Part shown: positions 39,383-64,000 of the stretch, piece by piece
How positions within the stretch are numbered: the stretch's first letter is position 1
Layout of the letters: each line of letters opens with the position of its first letter
NCBI RefSeq assembly: GCF_014931715.1
Contig: NZ_CP063164.1
Span: forward strand, 1,364,001-1,428,000
Origin: Sulfurovum indicum
GTDB taxonomy: Bacteria; Campylobacterota; Campylobacteria; Campylobacterales; Sulfurovaceae
Length of the DNA stretch: 64,000 nucleotides
Reading direction: 5' to 3'
Position numbers and translations under genes: made by a program
The notes under the pieces: generated by a model
What the model was told of the DNA's origin: nothing
Database searches by the model: none
The model's input: only the letters and a program-made list of their open reading frames with translations

Positions 39383-39384
39383 TT

Positions 39385-40731: not shown

Positions 40732-40782
40732 ATATATCCTTTTTTTATCACAACACCTCTAAATCCAGATTCTAACGCAAAT

Positions 40783-40981
40783 TCAAACTTTTTGATGATA
40801 TCTATCTAAACATAAGGTGAAACACCTGCTTATCTTTTTTTGTACCTTCATAAATAGCATTATCAATACACCATCCACTATGACAGCTGAGGATAAGGCA
40901 TCAAAGTAAACTTTTTTTCATTATATCTTTTGCAAGCAAAGAGATAAATGTTTCTAGGTTATTAAATTCTATATCTTTCAT
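40783..40981 (-). pseudogene. Possible frameshifted small gene
   Basis: The 310-base gap between hsdR and the ATPase contains an ATG at 40981 preceded by a good GGGGAG. It opens MKDIEFNNLETFISLLAKD and stops after 26 codons just past an A7 run (minus strand). Shifting frame at that run continues VYFDALSSAVIVDG, and a further shift gives IYEGTKKDKQVFHLMF. This looks like a decayed or slippery small gene; family unknown. The rest of the gap is featureless. Confidence 0.35.
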
Positions 40982-41041
40982 AACTCTCCCCTTTTTATAT
41001 TAATTTTTATTTTAACATATTTTATTAGTGGCGCAATAGCA

Positions 41042-47326: not shown

Positions 47327-47626
47327 TTATTTTTCACAGCACACCTCTTCAAATATCTTCTGCGCCACTTGCTCTGCATACTCCCAGCTTGAAAAAAGCA
47401 GCGAATCTTTGATGAAATAGTCTACACCACCGTATTTGTACACGCTCAACAGTTCTTCTGCACTCGCAACATTTTTGGCCAGTCCGTATAACTGCTCATC
47501 TAGTTTGGCACACATATACGCCACTGCCTCCTCTGTACTATGAAACTCCGCTATTTTACAGGGATGGCTCTCCCCTTTCATAAAATCGTAGTTGTCTTCA
47601 GCCCATACTTCTATTATCTGACTCAT
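47327..47626 (-). CDS. Hypothetical protein coupled to a phosphatase
   Basis: The 99-residue soluble acidic protein (FHSTEEAVAYMCAKLDEQLYG) begins at an ATG sharing a base with the stop of the upstream phosphatase (TAATG). The two are translated together. I do not recognise the family. No signal or membrane segment is present. Confidence 0.62.
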   Translation of the reverse strand: MSQIIEVWAEDNYDFMKGESHPCKIAEFHSTEEAVAYMCAKLDEQLYGLAKNVASAEELLSVYKYGGVDYFIKDSLLFSSWEYAEQVAQKIFEEVCCEK

Positions 47627-48360
47627 TACCGCCTCTTCTCTACTCTTTTTTCACTCACCACTTCCCCCGTCTCTACACAGTAGGCACTGAGCATCCCGTA
47701 CCCATGCTCACTCATGTAGCATCCCGTATCGATATTGACATAGTGTGGCTGCACATCGGCACCATATGGAGTAACGGTGTGTCCGAAGATGTTGAAAATG
47801 GGTGCGTTCTCATCAGGCTCTCGCCTGTTCCAAAGTGCCATCTCGGCAAAGGTCTTGTACATTGCATCGCTGTAGCGCATCCCCCAAACGGTGGCGATAG
47901 GTGCATGTGAGACGACAACGGGTTTACCTGAAGAGTGGTCTATATCGAGTTGTATATACAGTGGCAGCGAACGCATCCAGCAAATATCCTCTTTGAATAT
48001 CTCCAGCCTCTCTTTGGCATCCAAAGCAACTACGGGCTTACCCTCTTGCAAGGTAATAAGCCCGTACGACTTGAGTGTGGCAATACCACCGTTGCTATAC
48101 CAACTGTTATACGTTTTTATAGGTTCATTTTGTTCAATAAATAGGGCAAAACTGCTGCCGTATCCCGTCATCATCTCCTCATGGTTGCCCATCACACACC
48201 CATGTCCACCCTCTCGCACAAACTTCACCACCTCTGCACTTCTGCTGCCGCGATCGATAAGGTCGCCTACAAATATGAGCTTGGCATCGCTGGGAAGTTT
48301 TTCGACAAGTCTCATGAGGGTGTTGTATTCACCGTGAACATCACCGATGATGTAATACAT
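47626..48360 (-). CDS. PPP-type metallophosphatase
   Basis: The 244-residue protein shows the serine/threonine phosphatase-like metal motifs: IIGDVHGEYN at the N-terminus, VGDLIDRG, MGNHEEMM, VVSHAPI and IFGHTVTPYG. Relatives act on phosphoproteins or dinucleoside polyphosphates. The ATG at 48360 (after AGAGG) puts the first motif at residue 4, as is usual; the longer frame to 48393 is unlikely. Confidence 0.85.
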   Translation of the reverse strand: MYYIIGDVHGEYNTLMRLVEKLPSDAKLIFVGDLIDRGSRSAEVVKFVREGGHGCVMGNHEEMMTGYGSSFALFIEQNEPIKTYNSWYSNGGIATLKSYGLITLQEGKPVVALDAKERLEIFKEDICWMRSLPLYIQLDIDHSSGKPVVVSHAPIATVWGMRYSDAMYKTFAEMALWNRREPDENAPIFNIFGHTVTPYGADVQPHYVNIDTGCYMSEHGYGMLSAYCVETGEVVSEKRVEKRR

Positions 48361-48497
48361 TATTTTATTACCTCTCTTTTTTATACATTTCAAAAAGTTT
48401 ATCTACAACCTGTCAATCCTCAAAAAGCTCTTCAGGAGGTATAGATCCATTGCTAAAACAAGCTGTTTCCTCTTGCCAGTGATTGATTTTTCTTAAA

Positions 48498-49804: not shown

Positions 49805-50044
49805 TTACGTACCTTTTTCCATATTTTCATACTGAAAGTCATCCATGACTCTTCTTTTTCCAAAGCTCTCTGGAGCTGTTACAACTCCTGTGGCTTCAAG
49901 CTGCTGCAGAATTATTCCGGCACGTTCATACCCTATATGGAGTTTTCGCTGCAAATGCACTATCGTGCTCTTTCTATCCGTCAATACAATCTGCTTTGCC
50001 TGTTCATACAGCTTATCTAAAACAATAGTTCCACTTTGGGACAT
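49805..50044 (-). CDS. Orphan FtsK-gamma-like DNA-binding protein
   Basis: The 79-residue protein matches the C-terminal domain of the FtsK in this window at roughly half of aligned positions (LYEQAKQIVLTDRKSTI, LQRKLHIGYERAG, QLEATGVVTAPESFGKRR). It has no motor or membrane domain. The winged helix should bind DNA, perhaps KOPS-like sequences, as an independent factor. GGAGGGG precedes the ATG. It is the middle gene of a small operon (49-residue ORF, this gene, membrane protein) led by a copy of the shared regulatory motif. Confidence 0.85.
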   Translation of the reverse strand: MSQSGTIVLDKLYEQAKQIVLTDRKSTIVHLQRKLHIGYERAGIILQQLEATGVVTAPESFGKRRVMDDFQYENMEKGT

Positions 50045-50262: not shown

Positions 50263-50276
50263 TTAGATATTTTAGA
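50263..50276 (-). promoter_or_regulatory. Shared regulatory motif, copy 1
   Basis: In gene direction: TCTAAAATATCTAA, 58 bases before the 49-residue ORF. It extends on both sides as a direct repeat ATCTAAAAT-ATCTAAATA with 9-base period. Confidence 0.7.
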
Positions 50277-50372
50277 TGTCATAAAGTTGTTTGGAAAGTT
50301 GCATAATGGAGCTTTTGACAAGATCAGTGACTTTTGTAAAGAGCCAAAGTTTTAGAAAAATAGACAAGAACA

Positions 50373-51227
50373 ATGAAAGCCGATTACCTGATAATTCCCG
50401 ATATTCACGGACAAGTTAAGCAGTTTGATGCTGTAGTGCAATTGATCAAAGAATCCATACAAAAAGACAGAAATATACATATTCTGTTTCTGGGAGACTA
50501 CATAGATCGTGGAGAGGGTGGTAATTTCAAACACTATAGTAAACGCTTTAAAAAAGAGGTCGAAATATATTATGAAGATATTGGTTCGAGGTTGGTTATT
50601 GAGAGACTCTTCGATCTTAAAGATTATTTTGATGAGCACAATATCACTCATACATTTTTGCGCGGGAACCATGAGCAGGAATTTATTAGAAATATCCAAA
50701 TTGCAGAAAGCGGCAACAATCTTATAGCGATCCTTGAATCGAAGATGAATGACCTCAACAGAAAAACCTATCAAGAGATGATCTATACGCTAAAAGGCTT
50801 TACCCAAGAATTTGATCTTATGAAAAAAACAAAAACTTTTTTTGAATCTATGCCACTTTATATGTATGATAGAGAGAATGAACTCTTTTTTGTACATGCA
50901 GGCGTAGAACCGGGCATATCACCTGATGGCTCCGGTAATGATACTTACCTATGGATAAGAGAAAAGTTTTATATGTACACAGGTACCTATCCTGCAAGAA
51001 TCATTTTTGGCCATACTCCGATAGGCAGTTTAAATGAAGATGAGAAGTCATTTTTAAATGTTTGTGAACCGGAAAACATTATTTTAAAAGAAGACCGTAT
51101 AGGCTTAGACAGTGGAAACTATCAAAGGCACCCCTTGAATGTTTTGCGAATTAAAGACAGGATATACGAACTCATCAAGATTGATACACATGGCGTCATC
51201 GCATCCGCAATGCCCTTAAACTTATGA
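50373..51227 (+). CDS. PPP-type metallophosphatase
   Basis: The 284-residue protein has PDIHGQVKQ, LGDYIDRGEGG, LRGNHEQEF, FVHAGVEPG and FGHTPIGSLN in the order of serine/threonine phosphatase-like enzymes. A helical insertion lies between the third and fourth motifs. It could remove phosphate from protein or small molecules. It is a single plus-strand gene among minus-strand operons and has a weak ribosome site. Its upstream region holds motif copy 1, but in the opposite orientation. Confidence 0.82.
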   Translation: MKADYLIIPDIHGQVKQFDAVVQLIKESIQKDRNIHILFLGDYIDRGEGGNFKHYSKRFKKEVEIYYEDIGSRLVIERLFDLKDYFDEHNITHTFLRGNHEQEFIRNIQIAESGNNLIAILESKMNDLNRKTYQEMIYTLKGFTQEFDLMKKTKTFFESMPLYMYDRENELFFVHAGVEPGISPDGSGNDTYLWIREKFYMYTGTYPARIIFGHTPIGSLNEDEKSFLNVCEPENIILKEDRIGLDSGNYQRHPLNVLRIKDRIYELIKIDTHGVIASAMPLNL

Positions 51228-51233
51228 GAAAGG

Positions 51234-51458
51234 TCATCCTCTCTCATAGATAATGGGTTTTGGAGCAGCACTGACACTACCGTTATATGCTCGCATACCA
51301 TTCACATATACATCCACAGCCGATGAACTCACTATCACTGTTGCAAGCCCACTACTGTTCGTTTTAACCTCCGGACCGCCATAAGCTTTTACTCTTTGTC
51401 CTGAAAGACCTTTTCCTGTTCTTCGGTCAACAACCATTACCTGTACTGCATATGCCAT
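51234..51458 (-). CDS. Small Ig/CarboxypepD-regulatory-like domain protein ending in Gly
   Basis: The 74-residue product is a single beta-rich domain (VMVVDRRTGKGLSGQRVKAYGG, VDVYVNGMRAYNGSV) resembling carboxypeptidase-regulatory or transthyretin-like modules. There is no signal peptide. The protein ends IIYERG. A short compact beta protein with a C-terminal glycine, next to an E1/E2/JAB operon, is a candidate protein modifier, although its sequence looks more Ig-like than ubiquitin-like. A degenerate motif copy (51536-51549) precedes it by 77 bases. Confidence 0.6.
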   Translation of the reverse strand: MAYAVQVMVVDRRTGKGLSGQRVKAYGGPEVKTNSSGLATVIVSSSAVDVYVNGMRAYNGSVSAAPKPIIYERG

Positions 51459-51535
51459 TTTTGCTCCTTTTTAATATCATAGTCGGCTTTTCAAGCACCT
51501 CTGTTTTTCCGTATATGTAATTTATTGCAATTTTT

Positions 51536-51549
51536 TTAGATAAAATAGA
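51536..51549 (-). promoter_or_regulatory. Shared regulatory motif, degenerate copy
   Basis: In gene direction: TCTATTTTATCTAA, two mismatches in the first half compared with the consensus. It sits 77 bases before the 74-residue gene. Confidence 0.4.
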
Positions 51550-51557
51550 CAAGTGCC

Positions 51558-52037
51558 TCAATTGACAAAATAGTTAATGATCAGCCCAAGAGTCACCATA
51601 CCATACACCCATACCGCAATAACAAACTGCTGACGGTATGCCCTCTGTTCAAACAAAAGCCTATAGACCACCAGCATACTTCCTATAAACGGGAACCAGA
51701 CTGCCCACATCTCTTGCATGTCAAACAGCAGCAGTATCGGCCATAACAGTCCGTCTACTGTACCAATGAAGAGCCCTTTGAACACTTGCCAGATAAAACT
51801 GAAAAACCCTCTGCTTTGCATAAGGGTGTCGATGAGCATCATTGCAAATGTCATAATGGCGGTTCCACCGTAAACAAGCCATGCAGAAAAGAACCATGGT
51901 CGTTCACGCATCGTCTCCAGCAGTGTGCCCAAAGCCACCTCTTCTTCAGACTCCTTTTGGGTAAAAGGATGCGATGACCTGCTACTGTACCCTGCTCTCA
52001 TATACGGAGGGGTAGGATCTATATCTTTGAGTCCCAT
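51558..52037 (-). CDS. Four-helix membrane protein of the E1/E2 operon
   Basis: The 159-residue protein has a soluble N-terminal 45 residues and about four membrane helices (WLVYGGTAIMTFAMMLIDTL, VDGLLWPILLLFDM, WFPFIGSMLVVYRLLF, AVWVYGMVTLGLIINYF). It begins three bases after the JAB-E1 stop, with AAGGATAG. It could be a target, anchor or effector of the conjugation system. I do not recognise the family. Confidence 0.65.
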   Translation of the reverse strand: MGLKDIDPTPPYMRAGYSSRSSHPFTQKESEEEVALGTLLETMRERPWFFSAWLVYGGTAIMTFAMMLIDTLMQSRGFFSFIWQVFKGLFIGTVDGLLWPILLLFDMQEMWAVWFPFIGSMLVVYRLLFEQRAYRQQFVIAVWVYGMVTLGLIINYFVN

Positions 52038-52040
52038 CTT

Positions 52041-53468
52041 CTATCCTTCTTTAAAGAAGAGTTCCCACACTTTTGCTCTATCCCCAAGTGCGACCCGATC
52101 CTGACAATCAATACAGGAACTGTTTGGTTTTTGATGCTCCCATGCAATCTTTTGCCCTTGATTTTCCAGAGTCATGCAGTTAATATAGGTATTTTCCAGC
52201 ATTTTGTCTTTATATCCCCAAAATAGATTCATAAATTCCAGGCTCAATGTACTGACCGAAAGCATATTAAGCGGATAAACTGACGGGGACTTGACAGATA
52301 TATCCTCCACCTGAATATATTTTCGTCTCTGAGCCTCTTTCTTCATGCTTTCGGATACAAAATCATAGGCGAACTCTGTCTTTTTGAAATAGACCTCTTC
52401 ACAATTGAAACAGTGTGTCGCTGCCGGAACAACCACAACATTGCGCGCAGACAGCTCTTTGATGTTTCCCTGCTCTACAACAATACCGCTTGAACAGTCC
52501 AGGTACGGAATAAGATATGCCAGTGCCATTCTGTTAAGAAGATAGCGTGCTTTATTGCTGTCTACAGCACCTATGACCACATCACTGTCCTTAATGTAGT
52601 CTATCACCTCTTCATTAAAGAGGGTAGACTCAAATGTCTTGATTTTTAGATCAAAAGCTATCGGATAGAGTAGATCTTTTAAAATGTTGACCTTATATCT
52701 GCCAACATGACAAATCTTTCCTCCCTGCCATCTGTTCAAGTTAGTATCTTCCAGCTTGTCATCATCAATGATCACAAGGTTTTTTACACCAAGTCTCACC
52801 AGTGTTTCAGCCAAAATGGAACCGGTACCTCCCGCTCCCACCAGTGTCACCTTCAACCGAGAAAGCTCTTTTTGCCCTGCTTCTCCAAAACCAAGGATCT
52901 GTCTGTTATACATCTTCATATCAACAGTATGATCTTCATGGCTCTTATTTACAGGGGTTATATACTTCATAGGATACCCTACTACCACTATCTGATCAAC
53001 AGAAGTAAACACTTTTGTTTCTTTCACATACCCTCTTGCCGCGATCGTTTTCTGCCCAAAGACCATGGTAAGCATTTGTGCATCTGGTTTATGTTTGGTA
53101 ATCTCCGTATAGAAATACTCGAACAGTTTCTGGTCATTGGCATCATCAATACCCGAAAACCAGACATTCCCTTCTTCAAACGGATGGGAATGACAGCTTA
53201 TGAGTGCCTGATGTTTTCCGTTGACAAACTGCTGAAAAAGTCCATTCACCAGATCATTTTCTATCTCTACGTGTACGGCGGAGACAGAGATCTCTTTTTC
53301 ATCAAAGATGACTATCTTGTCTACCAAAAATACCGTATTACATGTATGGTGGCTGCTCTGTGCCAGGTTGCACAGCAAAAAAGCGTGCTTTTCATTTCTG
53401 TCTGCAAGAAGGAGGCTTTTAAGCTCATCAAAGGTCTCCTTCGTAAACTTCACAATCGTTCTGTTCAT
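52041..53468 (-). CDS. JAB-E1 fusion (ubiquitin-like activating enzyme with deconjugase)
   Basis: Residues 1-150 form a JAB/JAMM metalloprotease domain: H93-S-H95-P with S105 and D108 (HxHx9SxxD). From about 188 comes an E1/ThiF domain: YNRQILGFGEAGQKEL, the ATP-binding GAGGTGS (211-217), and IIDDDKLEDTNLNRW. Two CxxC pairs (HCFNCEE, SCIDCQD) match the E1/ThiF zinc knuckle. The protein could therefore both activate a modifier and remove it or process its tail. The gene overlaps the E2-like gene by ATGA. Confidence 0.88.
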   Translation of the reverse strand: MNRTIVKFTKETFDELKSLLLADRNEKHAFLLCNLAQSSHHTCNTVFLVDKIVIFDEKEISVSAVHVEIENDLVNGLFQQFVNGKHQALISCHSHPFEEGNVWFSGIDDANDQKLFEYFYTEITKHKPDAQMLTMVFGQKTIAARGYVKETKVFTSVDQIVVVGYPMKYITPVNKSHEDHTVDMKMYNRQILGFGEAGQKELSRLKVTLVGAGGTGSILAETLVRLGVKNLVIIDDDKLEDTNLNRWQGGKICHVGRYKVNILKDLLYPIAFDLKIKTFESTLFNEEVIDYIKDSDVVIGAVDSNKARYLLNRMALAYLIPYLDCSSGIVVEQGNIKELSARNVVVVPAATHCFNCEEVYFKKTEFAYDFVSESMKKEAQRRKYIQVEDISVKSPSVYPLNMLSVSTLSLEFMNLFWGYKDKMLENTYINCMTLENQGQKIAWEHQKPNSSCIDCQDRVALGDRAKVWELFFKEG

Positions 53469-54154
53469 TGCGAAACTCCTTCTACTCCCAGGAGTTTATA
53501 GTAAATGTAGTAACAGTAGTATGCAAGAGTATCACCCTCTTTGATGTTGTTTCTGTTAAAGTTCCAGCTGTTGTCATTGTAGTGAAAACATATCCAATGC
53601 CAGTTATTTTTGAGGCTTGACTCTACATGGTCACTCTCAAGAATGGCATGGTCATAAAGATGTGTACCGAATATCTTTTCCATTGCACCAATATTTTGAG
53701 AACCTTTAGGTATATGAAACCCAATTGGAGGGCTGTCCGGATAGTTGTTTAGAATAAAGAGAAACGACTCTTTGTCATACGGAAAACGGTAGGTGCTTCC
53801 ATCTTCAAGTGTTGTTTTTTCAGGAAGCGGAAAATCCATCTTCACCCAGTGCTCTCCCGGGGTCTCAAAGTCATACGTGATCATCGGCTGATCGATGCCA
53901 AGCTCTCTAAAGAACTGAAGCAGATAGGGAAACTCCTTGTGCAGATAATACTCGGCAATATCATCTGCACCGTCAATAATGTTCCCCTGAAACGGTTTTG
54001 GTGTAACCGTACCGATGTTCTCCGGTGCCATTCTCTCCAGGTTTTCCCGGGTCATCACCTCGACCTTTCCTTTTTGTTTATCCTCTACGATGAACTCCTT
54101 TACACCGGACTCATACCCGGGTACTACTTCTGCCAGATTGACTGTTTTTGCCAT
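53465..54154 (-). CDS. Prokaryotic E2-like conjugating protein
   Basis: The 229-residue protein has an N-terminal extension (1-65) of unknown fold, then a region with E2-like order: NNYPDSPPIGFHIP (138-150), HLYDHAILE, NWHWICFH with Cys189 and His191, SWNFNRNNIKEGDTLAYYCYYIYYKLL. This resembles the prokaryotic E2 'family E', which sits beside E1 and JAB genes. Cys189 would carry the modifier. The ATG at 54154 follows AAGGAG, so the longer GTG frame is rejected. First gene of the operon, with motif copy 2 upstream. Confidence 0.75.
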   Translation of the reverse strand: MAKTVNLAEVVPGYESGVKEFIVEDKQKGKVEVMTRENLERMAPENIGTVTPKPFQGNIIDGADDIAEYYLHKEFPYLLQFFRELGIDQPMITYDFETPGEHWVKMDFPLPEKTTLEDGSTYRFPYDKESFLFILNNYPDSPPIGFHIPKGSQNIGAMEKIFGTHLYDHAILESDHVESSLKNNWHWICFHYNDNSWNFNRNNIKEGDTLAYYCYYIYYKLLGVEGVSQ

Positions 54155-54509
54155 GCTGTACTCCTTGTGCCATACTGCAAATAGTATCTGTCCGAACTTT
54201 CCCGGACACCTCTCGTCTTTCACATTAAGAGTATGTCTGAAAATTTTTGGATATTTTGGAAATATGCTTCTTGTCTTCCAAAATCTCTCTTAACTCATCT
54301 TCACACCTGCCAACATTCTGTTGGCTGACAATATTACTGTGCGATGATTATTTTTAAAATTTTGGAGGGAGTATAATTATTTTGAAAACAGAGGTAAAAA
54401 AGTAAACTCAGCCACTAAAGAGTGACGTTCGGATAAGAGTCTGTGGTTGTGATATCATTCATTCATCTACCGGAGGGTAATAAAGTTCTGAACGGTCGCC
54501 CAAAAACTG
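54155..54509. other. Spacer between the E2-like gene and the HTH-TPR gene
   Basis: No gene is visible in these 355 bases. It holds motif copy 2 and a perfect 7-bp hairpin GCCAACA-TTC-TGTTGGC (54309-54325) about 50 bases upstream of it in the direction of the E2-like gene. Confidence 0.5.
54247..54260 (-). promoter_or_regulatory. Shared regulatory motif, copy 2
   Basis: In gene direction: TCCAAAATATCCAA, 92 bases before the E2-like start. Direct repeat TTTCCAAAATATCCAAA. Confidence 0.68.
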
Positions 54510-55688
54510 CTACTCACCCTCACTATTTGTCCCTATAGCTTCCTGACACTCTTTCATATAATCAAGAAATTCTTTGGCACTATTATCACCTGTAAAATGT
54601 ATATACAACTCTAACTGCCTGATGGTCGTTCCCATATCGAACTTTTTCAATGACTTCTCATTCCAGTCCAGATAATCATTGAGTTTTCCTATGGCATCAT
54701 GCATTTTATCCATAAGTACCAAAAACTCTATTTCTGTTGCGACTTCCCACCAGTCATCTTCATTTGTCTTCCAACCGGACTTATGCACCTCTTCATAGAG
54801 TGCTTTGATCTCTGATCTGGTATCGGTCTGTTCACTGTCGGTTTCCAAAGCATTGATAATTCCGATCAAGTAAGCAATATTGATCGCATCATAGTATCTT
54901 TCTTCTTTTTTGAGCCCATATGACTCTCTGTATGAAGCCTGTGCCTTCCCTAAAAGATCCATATCTATATATCGTACATCAGGTGGGTTCAGCGTTCCCT
55001 TTTCACTATACAATGCTTTACGTTTATAGTTTGAGGCGATCAATGTAAGTACTTCCGGCTCCTCCATGTGATATCCGGCAGAAAAATAAAGTATATTCAA
55101 GATATCCAATGCACCGTCCCAGTCTCGCACCCTCTCACTTGAAAGTAAAACTGCTTTGAGATGCTGAATAAGGTTGTAATGTTTGGCTTTATAGAGTGTA
55201 TTGGAAGCAAGTAGCACATCTGTTATCCGTAGTGCATCTTCGATTTGGTTATTATCTTTAAGTAAACGTATCAGGGCCATCATAAAGTCAGGAGAATACC
55301 CTTCTATATTACCGGGGAGACTAACAGGGTCCTGTGTATCAAGTATTTTTATCTGCTCTTCTTCAGCCGGTGACATTTTAATAATATCATCAAAGAAAAC
55401 CTTTTCTTTCTCTTCCCATACAGGAGTGTCCTGATCAAGAAGATAGGTATCAAGATGCTTCATAAACTCCTGTTCGGTATAGTAGTGTTCGGTCCAGACA
55501 TCATACCTTAGACCAAATCCTTCACAGATTTTCGTTCTGTTCTTTGTCTGCAGCTTATTCCCCGCACCATTTTCCCAATTGTTCACCGCTGCCCTGGATG
55601 CTCCTATCTTTTCTGCAAATATCTCATAATGCTCATATTTGTCCCTGTATTTGCTTACCATACATTGAAACTTTTGTATATCTGTCAT
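54510..55688 (-). CDS. HTH plus TPR (TRAFs-binding/TPR-S-like) protein
   Basis: Residues about 20-60 look like an XRE-type helix-turn-helix (EIFAEKIGASRAAVNNWENG). The following 330 residues are helical repeats, with RYYDAINIAYLIGIIN and DDWWEVATEIEFLVLMDKM, the pattern of the MAP3K TRAFs-binding (DUF4071/TPR-S) domain. That domain is known in bacteria next to SLOG, TIR and similar sensor proteins. It begins two bases after the SLOG stop. It could sense a SLOG-bound nucleotide and act as the regulator that recognises the shared motif; the second idea is speculative. Confidence 0.72.
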   Translation of the reverse strand: MTDIQKFQCMVSKYRDKYEHYEIFAEKIGASRAAVNNWENGAGNKLQTKNRTKICEGFGLRYDVWTEHYYTEQEFMKHLDTYLLDQDTPVWEEKEKVFFDDIIKMSPAEEEQIKILDTQDPVSLPGNIEGYSPDFMMALIRLLKDNNQIEDALRITDVLLASNTLYKAKHYNLIQHLKAVLLSSERVRDWDGALDILNILYFSAGYHMEEPEVLTLIASNYKRKALYSEKGTLNPPDVRYIDMDLLGKAQASYRESYGLKKEERYYDAINIAYLIGIINALETDSEQTDTRSEIKALYEEVHKSGWKTNEDDWWEVATEIEFLVLMDKMHDAIGKLNDYLDWNEKSLKKFDMGTTIRQLELYIHFTGDNSAKEFLDYMKECQEAIGTNSEGE

Positions 55689-55690
55689 TT

Positions 55691-56254
55691 CTACTCTTCC
55701 TTCGCTTCTCTCTCACATTCTACGATAAAAAAGCTTTTATCTTTTTGTTCTGTATATACAACAATATCTCCTGTACCGCCAGTACCACCACTCGGTTTGC
55801 CATCCCACAAAAAGAGCATCATATTGCTTCTGTCTACGATCTCTTCCCCTGTTTTCAAATATTGTTTATCTCTATACTCTCCATACTTTGAGATATTTTC
55901 CTCGGTACACCCCTCACATAACGGTATGACCGTTGGTTTATCCATAGCAGTCATTGTCAGTGCTTTATACTCTTGCAGTGATTCCAATGAAAAATCTTTT
56001 TCATACAAATATGACGGCATGGGAAGCAGCACTTCATACCGAAGCTCAAGCTCTTTTGCGGCATACACGGCCAGCCTGTCTGCACCATCTGCCAAAGGCG
56101 AGACAACAATCACTTCTCTGTCAGGATTTTCCCTAATCAACTTCATCAATATTGATTTTACTTCCTCTTTATAGTCATCCATTTTTGACTTCTTCAAATC
56201 TCTATGTCCGGAGACACCTACATACAGTTTCTCTTTTAGATAATATGGTTTCAT
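55691..56254 (-). CDS. SLOG-family nucleotide-sensing protein
   Basis: The 187-residue Rossmann-like protein carries the LOG/DprA-superfamily signatures: YVGVSGHRDL near the start, VVSPLADGADRLAVYAA, ... RSNMMLFLWDG and GGTGGTGDIVVY. SLOG domains bind or produce nucleotide-derived signals in anti-invader systems. AAAAGGAAT precedes the ATG, and motif copy 3 lies 41 bases upstream. It leads a two-gene operon with the HTH-TPR gene. Confidence 0.8.
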   Translation of the reverse strand: MKPYYLKEKLYVGVSGHRDLKKSKMDDYKEEVKSILMKLIRENPDREVIVVSPLADGADRLAVYAAKELELRYEVLLPMPSYLYEKDFSLESLQEYKALTMTAMDKPTVIPLCEGCTEENISKYGEYRDKQYLKTGEEIVDRSNMMLFLWDGKPSGGTGGTGDIVVYTEQKDKSFFIVECEREAKEE

Positions 56255-56295
56255 TTAGATTCCTTTTGTAATTCCGACATTTTCCAATACTGTTT

Positions 56296-56309
56296 TTGGA
56301 TATTTTAGA
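56296..56309 (-). promoter_or_regulatory. Shared regulatory motif, copy 3
   Basis: In gene direction: TCTAAAATATCCAA, 41 bases before the SLOG start. Identical to copy 7. Confidence 0.72.
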
Positions 56310-56367
56310 CAAGACAGCAAAATCTATGCTGCTTTGACACCTCTATACTCCATCACCCCATACAGCC

Positions 56368-58053
56368 TTAGGCTGCCCTGTTCGTACAAACCTCTTTCAG
56401 GATCTCCTCATAGTTTTTTGTCTGAGACTGCGAAAAAACCGTTTTTCTCTCTTCTGACATCCGCTCCTGCCGTATCTGCTCAAGTACTTTTTTTGCCTCT
56501 TCAAGTTCCATTTTTTTCTTCTCCACTGCTATAAGCTCATCGATCTCATCCCTGCTCAAACCGTCATTTTCCAAAATGCGCTGCGTTGCTCTTTTCGTCT
56601 GCATCTGTAGTGCAGCTGCATAGACTGTCGGTGGTCCGAATATCATTTTTGCAAGGATTGGTGCGATCTCCAAAAAGATCAGTATACCTTTGACCACCCA
56701 TGAGAAGTACCCTACCTCTTTCCCTGTCTTTGGATCCTGTTTCATCTCATCCATAGCGATCAGACGGCTCATGGGACCATCTCTGAACGGAATGAACTCC
56801 GGAGAGTGTATGATCTCTTTGTAATGTGCTTCAATGTACTGCTGCTTATTTTTGGCAATATCTTCCAGTCTCTTCTGCACCCTTTTTAGCTGTGCCTCAA
56901 ACCTCTTCATGATCGTCTTTGCATTTGCCTGCATTCCCTTCTGTACCTTTTGCTTATACTCTTTAAGCTGCGCATCGATTGCGGCAAGTGCATGTTCATT
57001 TTGTACCTGAAGATCTTCTTTATTCTTTGCTGACTCTTCTACCAGCAGTTGTATCTTGACATCGTAATTGTGCAGCAAGGCAGAAAGCTCCCGCATTTTG
57101 CCTTTGAGCTGATGCATACGTTTTTTATAGACCTTTGCCCTTCTTCCCTCTGTAGGAATTCCGCTTGCCCTGATGATCTTTCCGCCCACCTCGATCTCTT
57201 TGAGTCCTCCCACTTCTGCCTGATACTTCAGTTCAACTGCATCATATTCCTGCTGCATGGCATTTAGCTTTTGCTGTAACGGGTTGCGTGCCTCTTTCAC
57301 TACCTTCATTTTTGCATGATACTCAGTATCTAAAGCAGCAAACATTTTTTCATACTCTTTTTCAACGCTCTTTTTCTTCTCTTCAAGTGACCTGACCACG
57401 GAATCATCACTCCATACCACAACACCGCTGTCAAGTGTTTTTATTTTCTCAATCAGTTTCTCTTCTGCCTGCTTTAAAACATCCTCTTCCTCTTCCAGTT
57501 TCTGAGCGTATGTTTTCATATCATCATACGCTTTCTTATTTTCCTTAAGATGTTTTTTCTGCATTGAGGCAAGCAGCTCAGACTCATAGAACTTCAACTC
57601 GAGAAAACTTGAAAACGTATAGGCCAAAAAGAGTGAGATACTGATACGGACAGTTATTTTTAAGATATTGCCGGCCCAAAAGCCTGTCTTTTTCCAAAGT
57701 GAGATCTGGGCACCATAGGGCATCTGCATAAACCAGTCCGACTGGTAAAATGCCCTGTCGAACAACACAACCACCAGCGCAACAATGGCAGAGACCACGC
57801 CATACAGTACATACTCTCCTGTTTCTATTATATTGCTGTCAAAGCGGACGCTTTTGGTCTCTGCATCAAAAAAGACATCTCCACCGTTCATGATAGTTAT
57901 AGAGTAAAATGTAATGCCCCAGAGTACCACAAAAGTCAGTATCAGAGCATATCCTATCTGTGTTGCCCATATTTTGTCTTTTTGAGGACACTCATTCAGC
58001 ATTATATTGTCTATCGCTGCTATGTCTCTTGCTATCTTATTGATCATCTTCAT
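56368..58053 (-). CDS. DUF4407 membrane/coiled-coil protein
   Basis: The 561-residue protein has three N-terminal membrane helices (ALILTFVVLWGITFYSI, LYGVVSAIVALVVVLFDRAFY, VRISISLFLAYTFSSF). A coiled coil of about 230 residues (EEEEDVLKQAEEKLIEKIK and onward) follows, then a fourth helix (ILIFLEIAPILAKMIF) and a charged tail. The VVLFDRAF motif and this layout are those of DUF4407. Such proteins are often carried in mobile regions; the role is unknown. AAGGAG precedes the ATG and motif copy 4 lies 45 bases upstream. Confidence 0.85.
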   Translation of the reverse strand: MKMINKIARDIAAIDNIMLNECPQKDKIWATQIGYALILTFVVLWGITFYSITIMNGGDVFFDAETKSVRFDSNIIETGEYVLYGVVSAIVALVVVLFDRAFYQSDWFMQMPYGAQISLWKKTGFWAGNILKITVRISISLFLAYTFSSFLELKFYESELLASMQKKHLKENKKAYDDMKTYAQKLEEEEDVLKQAEEKLIEKIKTLDSGVVVWSDDSVVRSLEEKKKSVEKEYEKMFAALDTEYHAKMKVVKEARNPLQQKLNAMQQEYDAVELKYQAEVGGLKEIEVGGKIIRASGIPTEGRRAKVYKKRMHQLKGKMRELSALLHNYDVKIQLLVEESAKNKEDLQVQNEHALAAIDAQLKEYKQKVQKGMQANAKTIMKRFEAQLKRVQKRLEDIAKNKQQYIEAHYKEIIHSPEFIPFRDGPMSRLIAMDEMKQDPKTGKEVGYFSWVVKGILIFLEIAPILAKMIFGPPTVYAAALQMQTKRATQRILENDGLSRDEIDELIAVEKKKMELEEAKKVLEQIRQERMSEERKTVFSQSQTKNYEEILKEVCTNRAA

Positions 58054-58098
58054 TGACCGCTCCTTATGTTTTGATGATCATACTCTTGCATACTTTTT

Positions 58099-58112
58099 TT
58101 AGATACTTTAGA
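58099..58112 (-). promoter_or_regulatory. Shared regulatory motif, copy 4
   Basis: In gene direction: TCTAAAGTATCTAA, 45 bases before DUF4407. The direct repeat GTATCTAAA-GTATCTAAA is perfect over nine bases. Confidence 0.68.
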
Positions 58113-58159
58113 TACACCATATAGACATACTATCTGTCTCTTTCTCTCAATATCCTGCA

Positions 58160-58173
58160 TCCAAAATATCCAA
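58160..58173 (+). promoter_or_regulatory. Shared regulatory motif, copy 5
   Basis: TCCAAAATATCCAA on the plus strand, 123 bases before the 77-residue gene. Divergent from copy 4, 47 bases away. Confidence 0.68.
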
Positions 58174-58296
58174 AAAACAGTCTGTAAATTCATAGATGAA
58201 CCGGAAAATACTTGTCATCACAAATGACCAACCCATTCTCAGTCTTATATGAATTTATCATGAGATTTGCACTTAATTTTTTTCAAAGGAGCCGTC

Positions 58297-58530
58297 ATGA
58301 CAGCACCCATCATCACCAAGCATGCCAAAAGAAGACTCAAACAGCGTGCAGGACTGGCAAAAAGAGCACATGAAAAACACATATACAAGGTATTGAAAGA
58401 GGGAATGTTCCTCTACAGAAATAGAGAAAACAATGTTTTTTACATGAGGTATCATACCAAAGAGTATGTTTTCGGGCTGACAAAGCAGCTTGAGCCCATA
58501 CTCATCACCCTCTATCTAAAATATCCATAA
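58297..58530 (+). CDS. Small basic protein, DUF4258/RelE-like pattern
   Basis: The 77-residue basic protein (TKHAKRRLKQRAGLAKRAHE, VLKEGMFLYRNRENN) resembles DUF4258-type and RelE-fold small proteins that begin with a HAxxRxxQR segment. Whether it is a toxin cannot be said; no antitoxin-like partner is obvious, apart from the coiled-coil protein downstream. The ATG follows AAAGGAG. The last codons coincide with motif copy 6. Confidence 0.6.
   Translation: MTAPIITKHAKRRLKQRAGLAKRAHEKHIYKVLKEGMFLYRNRENNVFYMRYHTKEYVFGLTKQLEPILITLYLKYP
58515..58528 (+). promoter_or_regulatory. Shared regulatory motif, copy 6
   Basis: TCTAAAATATCCAT on the plus strand, 80 bases before the 201-residue gene, overlapping the end of the 77-residue gene. 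One mismatch at the last position. Confidence 0.6.
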
Positions 58531-58608
58531 TTTGTATGCGATAAATACACCATGCAGGCGGTGCCGACATCTGGTTGGCCGGAAACAACATATAGCGAGG
58601 AGTCAACA

Positions 58609-59214
58609 ATGAAAAACAATACAACATCATTTATCAACACGGAAGAGACAAAAGCAGAAATTCTGGTAGAGCCATTGTCAGAAAATGAACAGCTCAGAAA
58701 AGCCGTCCAGTCCAAAAAAACCCGTTTGGGTCTTTTTAACGAAATAGTTTACCATAGAGAAGCAGGAAAAGCCCTTCGGGAAAGGATGGGGCAGATTGCC
58801 ATCGCTCTTTTGGAAGCCCAGAAGGAAGATATTATCCATAGATTGATGCTTGATGGAGATATCCGCAAGAAAAAAGCCTATGGGATTTACCAGACACAAG
58901 TCAGTGAACTCAATAAAGAGATCATTAAAGAATCTGAACGTATTACCGATGAACTCAACGGAATGATCCAAGAGGGTATCAGTACCATATATCACAGAAG
59001 AGGCAGCTGGACCAGTAATATAAAAAATATGTACAAGCAGGGGTTGTTGGATGATGACTCCAGACAAAAAGAGCTGGAGAGAATGAACCGGTGGATTGAC
59101 AGAAGTCTGGATGAGTTGGATGATAAAGCTATTTTATTTGCCAAATCACAGGCAGAGACTCTTGCACAGACACTTAAACTGTTAGACCAAAGAAAAATTG
59201 AAGATTCTATCTAA
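58609..59214 (+). CDS. Coiled-coil hypothetical protein
   Basis: The 201-residue protein is almost wholly helical and charged (QSKKTRLGLFNEIVYHREAG, ELNKEIIKESERITDELNG, RWIDRSLDELDDK), with no signal or membrane part. I do not recognise the family; it may form a dimeric coiled coil. The ATG follows GAGGAG. The longer frame from 58552 has no ribosome site. It precedes a lipoprotein gene by 11 bases. Confidence 0.68.
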   Translation: MKNNTTSFINTEETKAEILVEPLSENEQLRKAVQSKKTRLGLFNEIVYHREAGKALRERMGQIAIALLEAQKEDIIHRLMLDGDIRKKKAYGIYQTQVSELNKEIIKESERITDELNGMIQEGISTIYHRRGSWTSNIKNMYKQGLLDDDSRQKELERMNRWIDRSLDELDDKAILFAKSQAETLAQTLKLLDQRKIEDSI

Positions 59215-59225
59215 GGAGACCAACT

Positions 59226-59546
59226 ATGAAAAAGTCACTACTCCTCATGCCACTTCTTGCCTCACTCCTTGGTGCAGGATGTTTCAAAGCAACAGATGAT
59301 CTGACGGTCAATGCCCAGCAGATCCGTCTGATCTCAGACTCTCTGGGCTGGAAGGTCGGCAAGCTCAAATCTCTGAGTATTGCCGGGCTCATCAGGACAA
59401 AACAGGAGATTTTTCCGGACGGCAGTATCAAAGTCTGCATCCAAGAGCGGGATGGTGACCTGAAGTTCATCATGTACAGCAGCAGTATCGAAGAGAGCGA
59501 CCCTCAATGGCACTTTTTGACGGCATCTAAAACGGGATGGTTTTAG
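59226..59546 (+). CDS. Small lipoprotein
   Basis: The 106-residue product has a lipoprotein signal with lipobox LGAGC at residues 16-20, and a mature domain of about 85 residues (ATDDLTVNAQQIRLISDSLGW, KVCIQERDGDLKFIMYSSS). I do not recognise it. AAGGAG precedes the ATG. It probably shares a transcript with the coiled-coil gene and converges with the 145-residue gene. Confidence 0.7.
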   Translation: MKKSLLLMPLLASLLGAGCFKATDDLTVNAQQIRLISDSLGWKVGKLKSLSIAGLIRTKQEIFPDGSIKVCIQERDGDLKFIMYSSSIEESDPQWHFLTASKTGWF

Positions 59547-59557
59547 ATGCCCCTGTA

Positions 59558-59995
59558 CTATATGCTTTGCAATAGTTCTTCAGCTTCTTCTAATGTCGAT
59601 TTTTCTTCTTTGCTATGCAAACTGTTTAAAAACTTTATTTTTTCTTCGTATTGCAACTTCTGATACTCTATCAAATGTTTCTCATTCAATATCCGAATCT
59701 CTTTTGCATACTTTTTTTCCAGTTCTTGCAGCTTTCTTCTCTCTGTCTCTAAGATATTATAGAGCCGCTCAGTTTGTCTATCTGTCATAGAAGGCAAAAT
59801 ATCGAACCAATACTGTCGTTCATCATCATCCATACTCTCTGTTGCCAAAATCATTTTTACCAGGAGAGCATGTTTTTTCAACAACGCATTACTGATCATA
59901 AACTTTGTGCCATGCTCTCTTATTGTCGTTACACTATTGCTATTATCTGCCAACACCAAACTGCAAATCAAAATCAACCAAACAACTGTTTTCAC
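59558..59995 (-). CDS. Exported coiled-coil protein behind TIR-STAND
   Basis: The 145-residue product has a signal peptide (TVVWLILICSLVLADNSNS) and a strongly helical second half (ERRKLQELEKKYAKEIRI, LIEYQKLQYEEKIKFL). The start is GTG overlapping the TIR-STAND stop by GTGA, so translation is coupled. Family unknown; an accessory periplasmic partner of the large protein is possible. Confidence 0.65.
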   Translation of the reverse strand: MKTVVWLILICSLVLADNSNSVTTIREHGTKFMISNALLKKHALLVKMILATESMDDDERQYWFDILPSMTDRQTERLYNILETERRKLQELEKKYAKEIRILNEKHLIEYQKLQYEEKIKFLNSLHSKEEKSTLEEAEELLQSI

Positions 59996-62900
59996 GTTTT
60001 ATCCTTTTTCAAGAGCACTTCAATCTCTTTAAAATATTTACTCTTGATACCTTTTTCCCCAAATATTGCAAAGTCCTCAATAATGACATCATCCCATATT
60101 TGTCCCGAGTCCAGTTTCAATCCTTTATTTTTTACATAGATCATTTTGGCTTCATCATATTTGCCCAAAAACAGCTTGGCATGTGCCAGATTTGTTTCGA
60201 TCCATTTTTGTGCAGGATCAAGTTTTAAACCTTCCTCGGCACTTTTCAAAGCCTCTTTATATTCTCCTGAAAGCAACTGGAACCAAGAGAGGTTGCCAAA
60301 CCGTTCGGCTCTTAACTTGTTAGGCATATCATCATATTTTTTCAGAGAATCCCTGGTAATCCGGATCGCTTTTGAGAGATTTCCGTTAGCTGCATTACAG
60401 GATGCCATATTGAAATAATAGTTAAAGAGAGTTTTCTCTTCTTTCTTATTTAAATTCAAATTGGTATCTTTCAAAATAGATATACATGCTTTTAGTTTTT
60501 TATTTAGATACTCTTTCTGTGTCGGAAACAGTTTGATCATTTTATCAACCAATACAATAGCCTCTTTGTTCTCTTGTAAAAGATAGCTGTATGAGAGCTG
60601 ATTTAAAGCCCAGAAGTTATCATCTTGAATAGCAAGAATATGATTGATCTGTTCTTCTATTTCTTTTAATTTATAATCTTTAAATAATTTTTCTATTTTT
60701 TCTTTATATTTATAGATCATAAACTTATTTATATACAGGGAGCCTCTAAGCCAGTCAGGAACTTCATGTTTCCTGTTGATTTTTTTATAATCAATTTTCA
60801 TCTTATAAATACCGTAAAAATACATATCTTCAATAGTCTCTTTTTCTTTGGTTGTATACAGCTCCGGATACTGGCTTGAGTGTCGATATAAAACCCTTGA
60901 AATCTTTACGATCTTCTCAATCCCTTCATTAAGTATTTGCTCCCATCTATCCTGGGTATACTCTTTTGCAAACCTTTCACTATTGACATAATTAAACACA
61001 GATGTAAAGTTCAATAAGGTGTCCAGTCCGCTGTATACACTGTTTTCTGTTTTGCTCTTAAACTGCTTAAACTTCATAAGCTTGTTCAAAAGTTCTTCGT
61101 TGGGCTCATACATGTACTTAAGCATGAAAGAGAGATATTCCAGGGTCTGACGATCTTTATCATTTACATTTCGATATCTTTGAAAAATATCCGGCAAATT
61201 TTGCGACAGGAGTGTTGATATCAGTCTATCCAGAGCTTTGAGTTGCTCTTTGGATAATAGCCACAGATCCAAAGAAAGCCTTGCCTCTAACTCCATTCCT
61301 ACATATTTACTTTTTCTAAAAACTATACCGGTAAAAATTTTATCGAAATCATTTAACTCTTTTTCCTCAAACTTAAGCCCTAATCCTTTTTTACTAAAAT
61401 ACTTCGTAAGTACATTGATCAAAAAGTCTTTTCTTGTTACATTGGCATCCAGGTATGTTAGAATTTTCGATACTTTGTCTAGTTTATCAATATGTCCGTC
61501 TTTTGCATCATCATTCAGGAACAATACCCAATATGCCCCTATCATATCATTTTTTTGTTTCTCTATTGTTGCCAATCTGTCTAATGCTGTTTTTTCACTC
61601 TTTTCTGCCAGTTTTGCCTGTACTGTTGCCCTCTCTTCATTTACCTTTGCAACCCTCCACTGCCAGGCACTGAAAAGCCCAAAAAGCAAAACAACAAGAA
61701 ATACTCCAAGATACAGTGTTTTTCTCCTCTTCTCCTGTTTCTCGTGAAATGCTATACTCTTTTTGATGTAGTTTTTCTCTTCGGTACTCAGCTGGTTTTG
61801 ATAATCCAACAGCCAGCTGGAAGCTTTTTGCAGTCTTATCCCGCTCAGGTATGCTCTGTGCCTGGTGTTTGCATCTTCTCTGCTATACTCCTGCAAGGCT
61901 ATCTCAAGCTGTGACTTGCCTACAAGAAACTCCTGCTCTTCCTGAAGCCAGTTCTGCAGCAGCGGCCACTTTCTGATAAGTGCTTCATGGGATATCTCTA
62001 TGACCTCTTTGCCCTCTTCTGATTTTTTGATGAGAAGTCTTGCTTTGACCAGCTCTTCAAGAACAGCATATGCTTTTGCGGGCAGTTCTTCCCACAGGGC
62101 GATCCTTTTGATATATTCATTTTTACTGTTCACACGAACCAGATGGGGAATAAATGCTTCCTTCAGAGCACGCATGGTTTCCGCATCTTCACGGAACCCT
62201 TTTATTGCCTCTTCTGCTTTCTGCTGGATGATATGCTCCAACGGATTCTCTTCGCCTCTGGCGAGTGCCTTATAACCTTCCAGCGTAATCTGGCCACTCT
62301 TTCCATACTTTTGGTAGAGTTCGCTCATACCAAGCGCAAGCAGAGGGAGTGCATCAGTAGTCTGCATATCCTCCTTGATCTTCTCTATCAGCCTCTCATC
62401 GATATCTATTCCCGCTACCACAGCTGGATCTTTAATGATGGAAGAGACATTTTCCTTTCGCAAAGGCGTAAGTGCAAACAGTTCCATGGTCTTGCAGATA
62501 GGTTTGAGTGCTTTATCTGCCTGAAACTCTTTGAGGAAATCAGCTCTGAGTGTCCATATGGCAAAGAAGTGTTCCTTCTCCTTCAGAAGGTAGTAAAGAG
62601 AACGGAAAAACTGCTCTTTTTCATCTTTCTCTGCAAGAGAGTAGAGCTCTTCTGCCTGATCCACCGGAAACAAAATGGCACTTTGGGGGGAGACAAACTC
62701 TATCTCCGATACCAGGTCATCCAGCACCTCTTGGTAGTTCTCCTGCCAAAGTGCTTCATAAATGCTTTTATACTCTTGTTCTTTGTTTAAAAAAGCTGCC
62801 AAGTTCTTAGCAAATGCATACAGTGGTCTTCTGGTAGGTCTCTGTACAGGCAGCACAATCCACCTGTCGCTGTAGGAGCGCTTAAGCTGCGGAATAATGC

Positions 62901-63516
62901 CCGCTTTCAAAAAAGAGGATTTCCCCATCCCCGAAGCTGCAACAATATTGAGAAACTTTGGGGCATTTCGGTTTCTCATTGCATTAAGTTTTTCTATGAC
63001 CTCCAGAGTATCATCTTCTCTTCCGAAGAAAATAGCTGCATCCTCCTCTTCAAAAGACATCATACCCGGATAGGGAGAACGGTGTCTGTCCCATTCAAAA
63101 CCACGCTGTGTATGGACAGATATCTCCTTAAGTCTGCTGATCACCCTGCTTAAATCATGCTGATCCTTGGATATGTCACTTTTCTGTAAAAAACCATCTA
63201 TCCATTGATCTACTTCATTATCGATACCATGGTCGATCACAACAGGAATGATCTCTTTCCCTAAAGCTTTGGCCTGTGTATACTCTGCAAAACACCATTT
63301 GGAGTCTATCCATGCCGGAGAGAGTATCAGCAGCATTGCATGGGTTCTTTTGATCTCACGGTAAAGCCGTTGTTCCCAATGCTCCCCTGTTTTGATCCCT
63401 TTTAACTTATCATGATCCAAAAAAATAGAGTCAAATCCTTGAAGTCTAATAGCTTCAACAATCTCATTTACCTTATCTTTATCTTTGGATGAATGCGAAA
63501 TAAAAACTACTGCCAC
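59992..63516 (-). CDS. TIR-nSTAND NTPase-TPR protein
   Basis: The 1174-residue protein begins with a TIR domain (VVFISHSSKDKDKVNEI; SKWCFAEY with Glu78 in the NADase position). Then comes nSTAND1 (SPYPGMMSFEEEDAAIFFGR at 147-166; Walker A ASGMGKSS 194-201; ILFPVDQAEELYS as Walker B). A membrane helix follows near 615 (LYLGVFLVVLLFGLFSAW), and the C-terminus is a long helical TPR-like region (including ISHEALIRKWPLL before the helix). Family knowledge: STAND proteins oligomerise on ligand and TIR then consumes NAD+. The start is GTG after GGGGGAG. The membrane helix between NTPase and TPR is less usual. Confidence 0.88.
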   Translation of the reverse strand: MAVVFISHSSKDKDKVNEIVEAIRLQGFDSIFLDHDKLKGIKTGEHWEQRLYREIKRTHAMLLILSPAWIDSKWCFAEYTQAKALGKEIIPVVIDHGIDNEVDQWIDGFLQKSDISKDQHDLSRVISRLKEISVHTQRGFEWDRHRSPYPGMMSFEEEDAAIFFGREDDTLEVIEKLNAMRNRNAPKFLNIVAASGMGKSSFLKAGIIPQLKRSYSDRWIVLPVQRPTRRPLYAFAKNLAAFLNKEQEYKSIYEALWQENYQEVLDDLVSEIEFVSPQSAILFPVDQAEELYSLAEKDEKEQFFRSLYYLLKEKEHFFAIWTLRADFLKEFQADKALKPICKTMELFALTPLRKENVSSIIKDPAVVAGIDIDERLIEKIKEDMQTTDALPLLALGMSELYQKYGKSGQITLEGYKALARGEENPLEHIIQQKAEEAIKGFREDAETMRALKEAFIPHLVRVNSKNEYIKRIALWEELPAKAYAVLEELVKARLLIKKSEEGKEVIEISHEALIRKWPLLQNWLQEEQEFLVGKSQLEIALQEYSREDANTRHRAYLSGIRLQKASSWLLDYQNQLSTEEKNYIKKSIAFHEKQEKRRKTLYLGVFLVVLLFGLFSAWQWRVAKVNEERATVQAKLAEKSEKTALDRLATIEKQKNDMIGAYWVLFLNDDAKDGHIDKLDKVSKILTYLDANVTRKDFLINVLTKYFSKKGLGLKFEEKELNDFDKIFTGIVFRKSKYVGMELEARLSLDLWLLSKEQLKALDRLISTLLSQNLPDIFQRYRNVNDKDRQTLEYLSFMLKYMYEPNEELLNKLMKFKQFKSKTENSVYSGLDTLLNFTSVFNYVNSERFAKEYTQDRWEQILNEGIEKIVKISRVLYRHSSQYPELYTTKEKETIEDMYFYGIYKMKIDYKKINRKHEVPDWLRGSLYINKFMIYKYKEKIEKLFKDYKLKEIEEQINHILAIQDDNFWALNQLSYSYLLQENKEAIVLVDKMIKLFPTQKEYLNKKLKACISILKDTNLNLNKKEEKTLFNYYFNMASCNAANGNLSKAIRITRDSLKKYDDMPNKLRAERFGNLSWFQLLSGEYKEALKSAEEGLKLDPAQKWIETNLAHAKLFLGKYDEAKMIYVKNKGLKLDSGQIWDDVIIEDFAIFGEKGIKSKYFKEIEVLLKKDKT

Positions 63517-63533
63517 AACCCATCTCCCCCGCT

Positions 63534-63539
63534 ATTATA
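63534..63539 (-). promoter_or_regulatory. -10 box of the TIR-STAND gene
   Basis: TATAAT on the minus strand, 17 bases before the GTG start, giving a leader only long enough for the GGGGGAG site. Motif copy 7 would lie at about -55 to -65 from this start. Confidence 0.5.
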
Positions 63540-63579
63540 GAAAAGTATATCGAATAGAAGTTGAAATCCTTTTGTATCG

Positions 63580-63593
63580 TCTAAAATATCCAA
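63580..63593 (+). promoter_or_regulatory. Shared regulatory motif, copy 7
   Basis: TCTAAAATATCCAA on the plus strand, 47 bases before the gene at 63641, in the divergent gap with TIR-STAND. It could serve both genes. Confidence 0.7.
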
Positions 63594-63640: not shown

Positions 63641-64000
63641 ATGTCATTACATAATGATAAAATAAAAAAGTCTGATACAAAATGGATGAATGCATTTGAA
63701 AATACTGTCTGGTCTAAACTGAAGCGTAAACAAAAGCGTAAACTCTGTAAAAGATTTGGGCTTCTCTATATGAAAGACACCACACTTGATATGCTGACAG
63801 AACAGATAGAAGTGCCTGCTCTTCCTCTTGCATTTTGTATCGCTGCTATGCATAAACTCAAGCAATGGGATGTAAAGTTACTGCAAAGCAACCCATATAA
63901 ACAGTTGTGGATAGAAAAGCTCACCTATGATCAAGACAGATGGGGGATCAGGCGCACACATACGCATACATATGGGATCTATGAGAATACCCCACTCTCT
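63641..64000 (+). CDS. Hypothetical protein, 3' end beyond the window
   Basis: An ATG after AGGAGAAAAG opens a frame that stays open for 120 codons to the window end. It reads SLHNDKIKKSDTKWMNAFE, then a very basic stretch (KLKRKQKRKLCKRFG), IEVPALPLAFCIAAMHKL and the start of another region (YKQLWIEKLTYDQDRWG). I do not recognise it. It lies divergent to TIR-STAND and 47 bases after motif copy 7, so it probably belongs to the same regulon. Confidence 0.65.
   Translation, partial: MSLHNDKIKKSDTKWMNAFENTVWSKLKRKQKRKLCKRFGLLYMKDTTLDMLTEQIEVPALPLAFCIAAMHKLKQWDVKLLQSNPYKQLWIEKLTYDQDRWGIRRTHTHTYGIYENTPLS

Follow-up and report, generated by a model that had tools for sequence, protein, structure and literature searches.

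A 64,000 nt stretch of the Sulfurovum indicum genome, here termed the window, contains at 54510-56309 two adjacent genes that raise the question of whether a nucleotide signal might be passed directly to transcription. The upstream gene encodes a 187 aa SLOG protein (55691..56254), and its partner a 392 aa protein joining a predicted N-terminal HTH to a TPR-S domain, hereafter HTH-TPR-S (54510..55688). Both ORFs lie on the minus strand with ATG starts; they are separated by 2 bp, a spacing that an earlier sequence-only reading of this DNA had noted.

Domain architecture of the paired proteins

The TPR-S domain (PF20308) spans residues 173-274 of the larger protein (54867..55172, minus strand) and scores 33.3 bits against a Pfam cut-off of 27.6, with close relatives reaching 36-45 bits; the MAP3K_TRAF_bd profile (PF13281) falls just below its own cut-off (23.3 and 24.1 bits respectively), a resemblance that is structural only. 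In the AlphaFold2 model of this protein (pLDDT 84.4, pTM 0.75), the helical part best matches the central regulatory region of ASK1 (MAP3K5; 5ulm, Z 16.9 over 258 residues, 14% identity), although there is no kinase here. Rap folds rank next (RapI, Z 14.6) and ComR is among the weak Foldseek matches. The combination of HTH and TPR in one protein recalls the RRNPP regulators (ComR, Rgg and PlcR, with Rap as the counterpart of the TPR part); however, the partner in this case is a SLOG protein rather than a secreted peptide, and the TPR part is nearest to the ASK1 region.

The N-terminal domain (residues 3-65; 55494..55682, minus strand) is predicted, from sequence and model together, to be a DNA-binding HTH. 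AlphaFold2 places five helices in it with confidence (residues 3-13, 21-28, 32-39, 48-58 and 62-65; pLDDT ~76-90), in support of the HTH proposed in the sequence-only reading, though the HTH_3 match is below the Pfam cut-off (18.2 against 23 bits; E 0.012 for the whole protein and 0.0025 for the isolated domain). Taken alone, the HTH regions of relatives match several HTH families, the family profile also retrieves free-standing HTH proteins from other genomes, and Trp38 and Trp65 are invariant among the closer relatives. The N-terminal region is nevertheless poorly conserved, with long insertions in several relatives; in that of G162 (L021:9266-10825), a long insertion separates the first HTH helix from the later ones, and the profile aligns the two parts separately. 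Sequence searches of solved structures gave nothing useful, and the HTH profile found only weak matches there, the top one being a designed DNA-binding protein, with homeodomains lower (E 0.12 and above). The Pfam matches, taken as far as E 1, include no WYL family.

The smaller protein has no Pfam match above cut-off, the top hit being YAcAr at E 0.11, whilst its relative in L025 matches the YpsA profile with E 1.7e-5 (25.3 bits; cut-off 27.7). The AlphaFold2 model, built from two sequences only, is of low confidence (pLDDT 58.5, pTM 0.59), and its best fold match in structural comparisons is YpsA (Z 11.0, 150 aligned residues, 3.7 A), followed by ShosA and DprA (9.6-8.2, with DprA reaching 9.5), LOG (~7.5) and ThsA (Z 5.9). 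As modelled at this pLDDT, the protein is a member of the SLOG superfamily, nearest to the YpsA clade; it contains the signatures GVSGHRDLK, SPLADGADRLA and LFLWDG..GGTGGTGDI, which are kept in relatives, and is probably nucleotide-binding.

Either partner might be the one that senses the nucleotide. It is quite possible that the SLOG protein is an enzyme making or destroying the nucleotide, with TPR-S as the sensor controlling the HTH. TPR-S is called a sensor in Pfam, the GGTGGTGD loop of the window protein is reminiscent of LOG enzymes, and SLOG clades span both enzymes and sensors (PMC9503650); such an arrangement would also suit the HTH-TPR-S genes that have no SLOG gene nearby. Against this, the best fold match is YpsA, at Z 11, and the YpsA-like clade includes sensors of cADPR (PMC9503650).

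Relatives and gene neighbourhoods

Scanning genome contigs with single proteins found nothing; an alignment-based scan found five loci in Campylobacterota. Viral contigs and plasmids contained no relatives, and none of the SLOG protein was found in phages. A SLOG gene adjoins, or shares an operon with, the HTH-TPR-S gene in eight of the 16 loci examined, and the other eight have no SLOG nearby. This co-occurrence, in addition to the PF20308 score, indicates that the TPR region is not merely generic. The suggestion that TPR-S proteins usually lack an HTH found no support, as worded, in Campylobacteria, the bacterial class to which this genome belongs: an HTH-like N-terminus is found across the separate, SLOG-partnered TPR-S proteins, and the HTH-less proteins in the census have another architecture, DRHyd-TPR-S, to which a SLOG domain is fused in some cases.

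TIR genes lie beside most HTH-TPR-S loci, and STAND, TIR and NACHT genes are the usual neighbours of the SLOG/TPR-S pairs found here. Such partners would be expected if the HTH-like domain served for protein contacts, with SLOG/TPR-S acting directly on STAND/TIR effectors, as other SLOG/TPR-S conflict systems do, and the promoter motif described below being unrelated, and the insertions, poor conservation and sub-threshold HTH scores of the N-terminus are consistent with this. We consider it unlikely, given the confident five-helix model, the similarity that this region shows to HTH proteins standing alone in other genomes, and the association of promoter clusters with genomes encoding HTH-TPR-S.

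A direct repeat at promoters of the island

The interval 54510-56309 ends exactly at a copy of a 17-mer, TTTTTGGATATTTTAGA (56293-56309). Written as TTTTTGGATATTTTRGA, it matches the genome perfectly at just three places, all at 54.2-58.2 kb and within 4 kb of one another. Its core, which reads TCYAAARTATCYA in the sense orientation of the genes that follow, is present at 10 positions in the 2,209,694-bp genome, compared with no occurrences of a reversed-pattern control. Seven of these copies fall within 13.3 kb (50264-63592), each upstream of a transcription unit and on its sense strand; six lie entirely between genes, and the seventh shares its bases in part with the end of the gene before it. 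The remaining three are inside unrelated genes. At the rate observed outside the island, 0.018 copies would be expected within it (clustering P ~1e-14 or less).

Four of the island copies are on the minus strand: TCTAAAATATCTA at 50264..50276, directed towards a small ORF and an FtsK_gamma-like gene (50044), with a -10 box of TAATAT; TCCAAAATATCCA at 54248..54260, preceding an E2/JAB-E1 operon, with CATACT at 54235-54230; TCTAAAATATCCA at 56297..56309, preceding the SLOG/HTH-TPR-S operon, with a -10-like GAAAAT at 56284-56279; and TCTAAAGTATCTA at 58100..58112, preceding a DUF4407 gene. On the plus strand, TCCAAAATATCCA at 58160..58172 (-10 TAAATT) precedes the gene at 58297, TCTAAAATATCCA at 58515..58527 precedes that at 58609 and extends over the final codons of the gene before it, and a further TCTAAAATATCCA at 63580..63592 precedes the AAA+ gene at 63641. 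Other HTH-TPR-S loci of the Campylobacterota have TCCAANAAATCCA upstream of the SLOG operon or of other genes. The unit common to all is a TCCAA-N4-TCCAA direct repeat, whose 9-bp period is close to a full helical turn.

In all 29 sites from relatives, at least five of the six bases of TATA(A/C)T follow the repeat after exactly 12 bases, compared with no more than three of 29 at other offsets. Fifteen of these sites were picked without reference to the -10 and they too show it; the rest were chosen by a pattern containing it and so carry no weight as evidence for the -10. Within the window, the same N12 offset is the best, with A2 present in 7/7 sites and A2 plus T6 in 6/7 (P ~1e-4 after correction), though some of the boxes are poor (AAGAGT, TACCCT). 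This fixed distance of 12 bp implies that the motif is, as read from its sequence, a promoter in which the direct repeat occupies the -35 position. It is placed for autoregulation at 56297 of the window and likewise in G162 (L021:11454), L028, L029 and G587.

Because the spacing between repeat and -10 is invariant, HTH-TPR-S appears likelier to activate these promoters than to repress them. The converse, that it is a repressor released by the nucleotide and that the occupied repeat blocks polymerase at the -35 position, seems rather unlikely. Campylobacterota promoters often need no -35 box, and the -10 boxes of the window are AT-rich, both of which would suit a repressor; defence operons are also under the control of the well-characterised regulators CapW and BrxR, of which CapW acts by repression (PMC9122588). 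Yet repressor sites usually tolerate variation, and the distance is 12 in aligned sites of several genera, whilst the poor -10 boxes of the window would fit a promoter that needs help. Activation is therefore favoured.

Promoter clusters in other genomes

When 175 genomes of the family were scanned with a pattern comprising the repeat and the -10, promoter clusters were found only in G000, G110 and G162, all three of which carry HTH-TPR-S. The bare repeat, tried as a marker without the -10, is present in 146 of the 175 and was too common to be informative; G017 alone has 19 copies, mostly lacking a -10. The same scan of 399 genomes of the order also flagged G409 (seven sites) and G587 (four sites) before their carrier status was known, and a relative of HTH-TPR-S was afterwards found in both. 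As eight genomes in a census of 269 have a full-length HTH-TPR-S, the probability of both flagged genomes being carriers by chance is P ~6e-4. In G587, an operon with SLOG and TPR-S genes begins at the promoter. G646 also fits the association, but it is a source locus. The shared upstream motif, already remarked upon in the sequence-only reading, behaves as a regulon signal of HTH-TPR-S itself would: it is largely specific to the island (7/10 copies), in an autoregulatory position, kept in sister loci and clustered only in carrier genomes.

The link between motif and protein is not one to one, as seven genomes with members of the HTH-TPR-S family have no promoter clusters (G145, G079, G011, G355, G502, G627 and G560) and a single such promoter occurs in G565, where no HTH-TPR-S was detected; several of these exceptions are incomplete MAGs. 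Beside the motif-less HTH-TPR-S genes, no clear alternative with the same repeat geometry and other letters was found. The genomes that encode HTH-less DRHyd-TPR-S proteins (G399, G304, G628 and G099) are without clusters. A census using the Pfam TPR-S profile, with 27 of 399 genomes above cut-off, mixed these HTH-less proteins and generic TPR matches and was too broad, hence one based on the HTH-TPR-S alignment was used instead. The motif was also considered as a phage signal, which was rejected as viral contigs have only single, scattered matches and no clusters.

The exceptions might be explained by another regulator reading the repeat, either a host factor or the stand-alone FtsK_gamma winged-helix protein of the island (79 aa; 49805-50044; E 3.5e-17), with HTH-TPR-S merely travelling along. 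A motif copy does lie upstream of the FtsK_gamma gene, with a small ORF between them. However, known FtsK_gamma domains bind the GC-rich KOPS, unlike the A/T-rich repeat, and the loci with the motif in G162, G110, G409, G587 and the L028/L029 contigs showed no FtsK_gamma-like gene, whereas HTH-TPR-S is the gene of DNA-binding type common to the motif-bearing genomes examined. A different reader is accordingly thought unlikely, and on balance the probable reader of the repeat, and regulator of the island, is HTH-TPR-S.

Genes of the candidate regulon

The E2/JAB-E1 operon (51234-54154) begins with a 229 aa protein, read from an ATG with a ribosome-binding site (53465..54154, minus strand). It has no Pfam match, is 44% identical to a protein of a G627 operon, and is probably E2-like as judged from its gene context. 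The JAB-E1 protein that follows (52041..53468, minus) matches ThiF with E 2.2e-39 and Prok-JAB weakly, and is 54% identical to its G627 counterpart; next is a probable 159 aa membrane protein (51558..52037, minus), weakly like the G627 protein at the same place. In G627, a distant relative, the genes for E2, JAB-E1, the membrane protein, a shortened SLOG protein and HTH-TPR-S form a single operon (L266:2311-4912). This independent arrangement argues for the window's E2/JAB-E1 and SLOG/HTH-TPR-S operons being parts of a single system. A 74 aa protein encoded at 51234-51458 in the former operon ends in ...YERG; that it is a ubiquitin-like modifier is a guess.

Also preceded by the motif are genes for a DUF4407 membrane protein (56368..58053, minus; 71 bits), a 77 aa protein (58297..58530, plus), a 201 aa protein starting at 58609 (plus) and a ClpB-like AAA+ protein of 525 aa (AAA_2 E 4.5e-11, ClpB_D2-small; 63641..64000, plus, continuing beyond the window). 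A homologue of the 77 aa protein in G162 (45% identity over 67 aa) is likewise motif-driven, from a site at L114:3442. The largest gene of the island encodes a 1174 aa TIR-nSTAND1-TPR protein (59992..63516, minus; nSTAND1 268.6 bits, TIR_2 72.5 bits) and has no motif copy on its own strand. Two calcineurin-like phosphoesterases are encoded near the island (47626-48393 and 50373-51227), and what looks from its sequence like a type I restriction-modification cluster (HsdS, HsdM and HsdR-like genes) adjoins it at 35718-43387, with no copy of the motif.

A second promoter cluster in G162 (L114, G162:C65, 3442-9528) includes that site; genes for small secreted proteins and a PIN-like protein are also associated with it, as is, further along, a TIR gene. 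Known HTH-TPR-S genes are all distant from this cluster, suggesting that the regulator acts in trans. In G409 (L135, G409:C154, 1539-12919), the promoters precede secreted trypsin-like and subtilase proteases and small lipoproteins, suggesting that the regulon there reaches the envelope or the exterior of the cell.

A proposed transcriptional switch

We propose that the pair would constitute a transcription factor that responds to a nucleotide, activates its own operon and has a regulon spanning the island. Infection or stress would lead to a nucleotide being made or altered, a likely source being a TIR enzyme such as the neighbouring TIR-nSTAND1 protein; once bound by the YpsA-like SLOG protein, this nucleotide would cause a change of state in the partner's TPR-S arm. 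Two HTH-TPR-S subunits would then bind TCCAA-N4-TCCAA head to tail through their HTHs at the -35 position and recruit RNA polymerase, exactly 12 bp before the -10 box. This would switch on the E2/JAB-E1 operon and the genes for DUF4407, the AAA+ protein and the small proteins as one regulon; the SLOG/HTH-TPR-S operon would also be induced, giving positive feedback.

Counting against this scheme are the sub-threshold HTH_3 score, the poor -10 boxes of the window and the lack of an own-strand motif at the TIR-nSTAND1 gene, as well as the tendency of Cro/XRE-type HTHs to bind inverted repeats more often, rather than the direct repeat envisaged here. The likelihoods given to the alternatives above are not mutually exclusive: whether the factor represses or activates, and whether SLOG is an enzyme or a sensor, are variations on a single core account.

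Comparison with known systems

The locus resembles the nucleotide-centred SLOG/TPR-S conflict systems described by the Aravind group in having such a pair beside TIR, STAND and NACHT genes, and differs from them in the N-terminal HTH on TPR-S and the island-specific promoter, the fused DRHyd-TPR-S-SLOG forms being without an HTH. TPR-S itself was reportedly defined in a 2015 paper. In Thoeris, the TIR protein ThsB makes a cADPR isomer that is sensed by the SLOG domain of ThsA (PMC9503650). A TIR enzyme and a YpsA-like SLOG protein are similarly found in one island here, but the output would be transcription through the HTH partner rather than a SIR2 NADase; the SLOG protein is a single-domain protein of 187 aa, with no Thoeris effector fusion, and PADLOC gave no ThsA match. 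CapW and BrxR are ligand-controlled WYL regulators of CBASS and BREX in defence islands (PMC9122588, PMC9122601), and the proposed factor would be similar in being a ligand-controlled regulator that is encoded with defence genes and acts on their promoters. It differs from them in having no WYL domain, in a direct repeat with fixed -10 spacing instead of a palindrome, and in a ligand arm composed of a TPR array and a separate SLOG protein. Fusions of SLOG and HTH in phages have been proposed to place transcription under the control of NAD+/ADPR (PMC9503650).

In the literature searched there was no description of an HTH-TPR-S/SLOG regulator, nor of a TPR-S transcription factor with an island-wide promoter code shared across genera. 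SLOG/TPR-S pairs are already known, and it is the transcriptional arrangement that appears to be new. Only tentatively would we go as far as a second-messenger-gated activator with its own promoter code that, across the Campylobacterota, joins otherwise unlinked conflict and secretion genes, and the ubiquitin-like conjugation operon, into one emergency regulon, as an inducible, self-amplifying master switch of the defence island.

Most of the second messengers described in defence, such as cADPR isomers and cyclic oligonucleotides, directly trigger a killing protein. If the proposal is correct, SLOG acting via HTH-TPR-S would add transcription to the outputs of such messengers, and the pair would explain how a whole island could be kept silent and then fired together. 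A promoter code this short, specific and conserved allows the regulon to be recognised in sequence; the code has already predicted two further carriers, and it would tie the ubiquitin-like E1/E2/JAB operon to nucleotide signalling.
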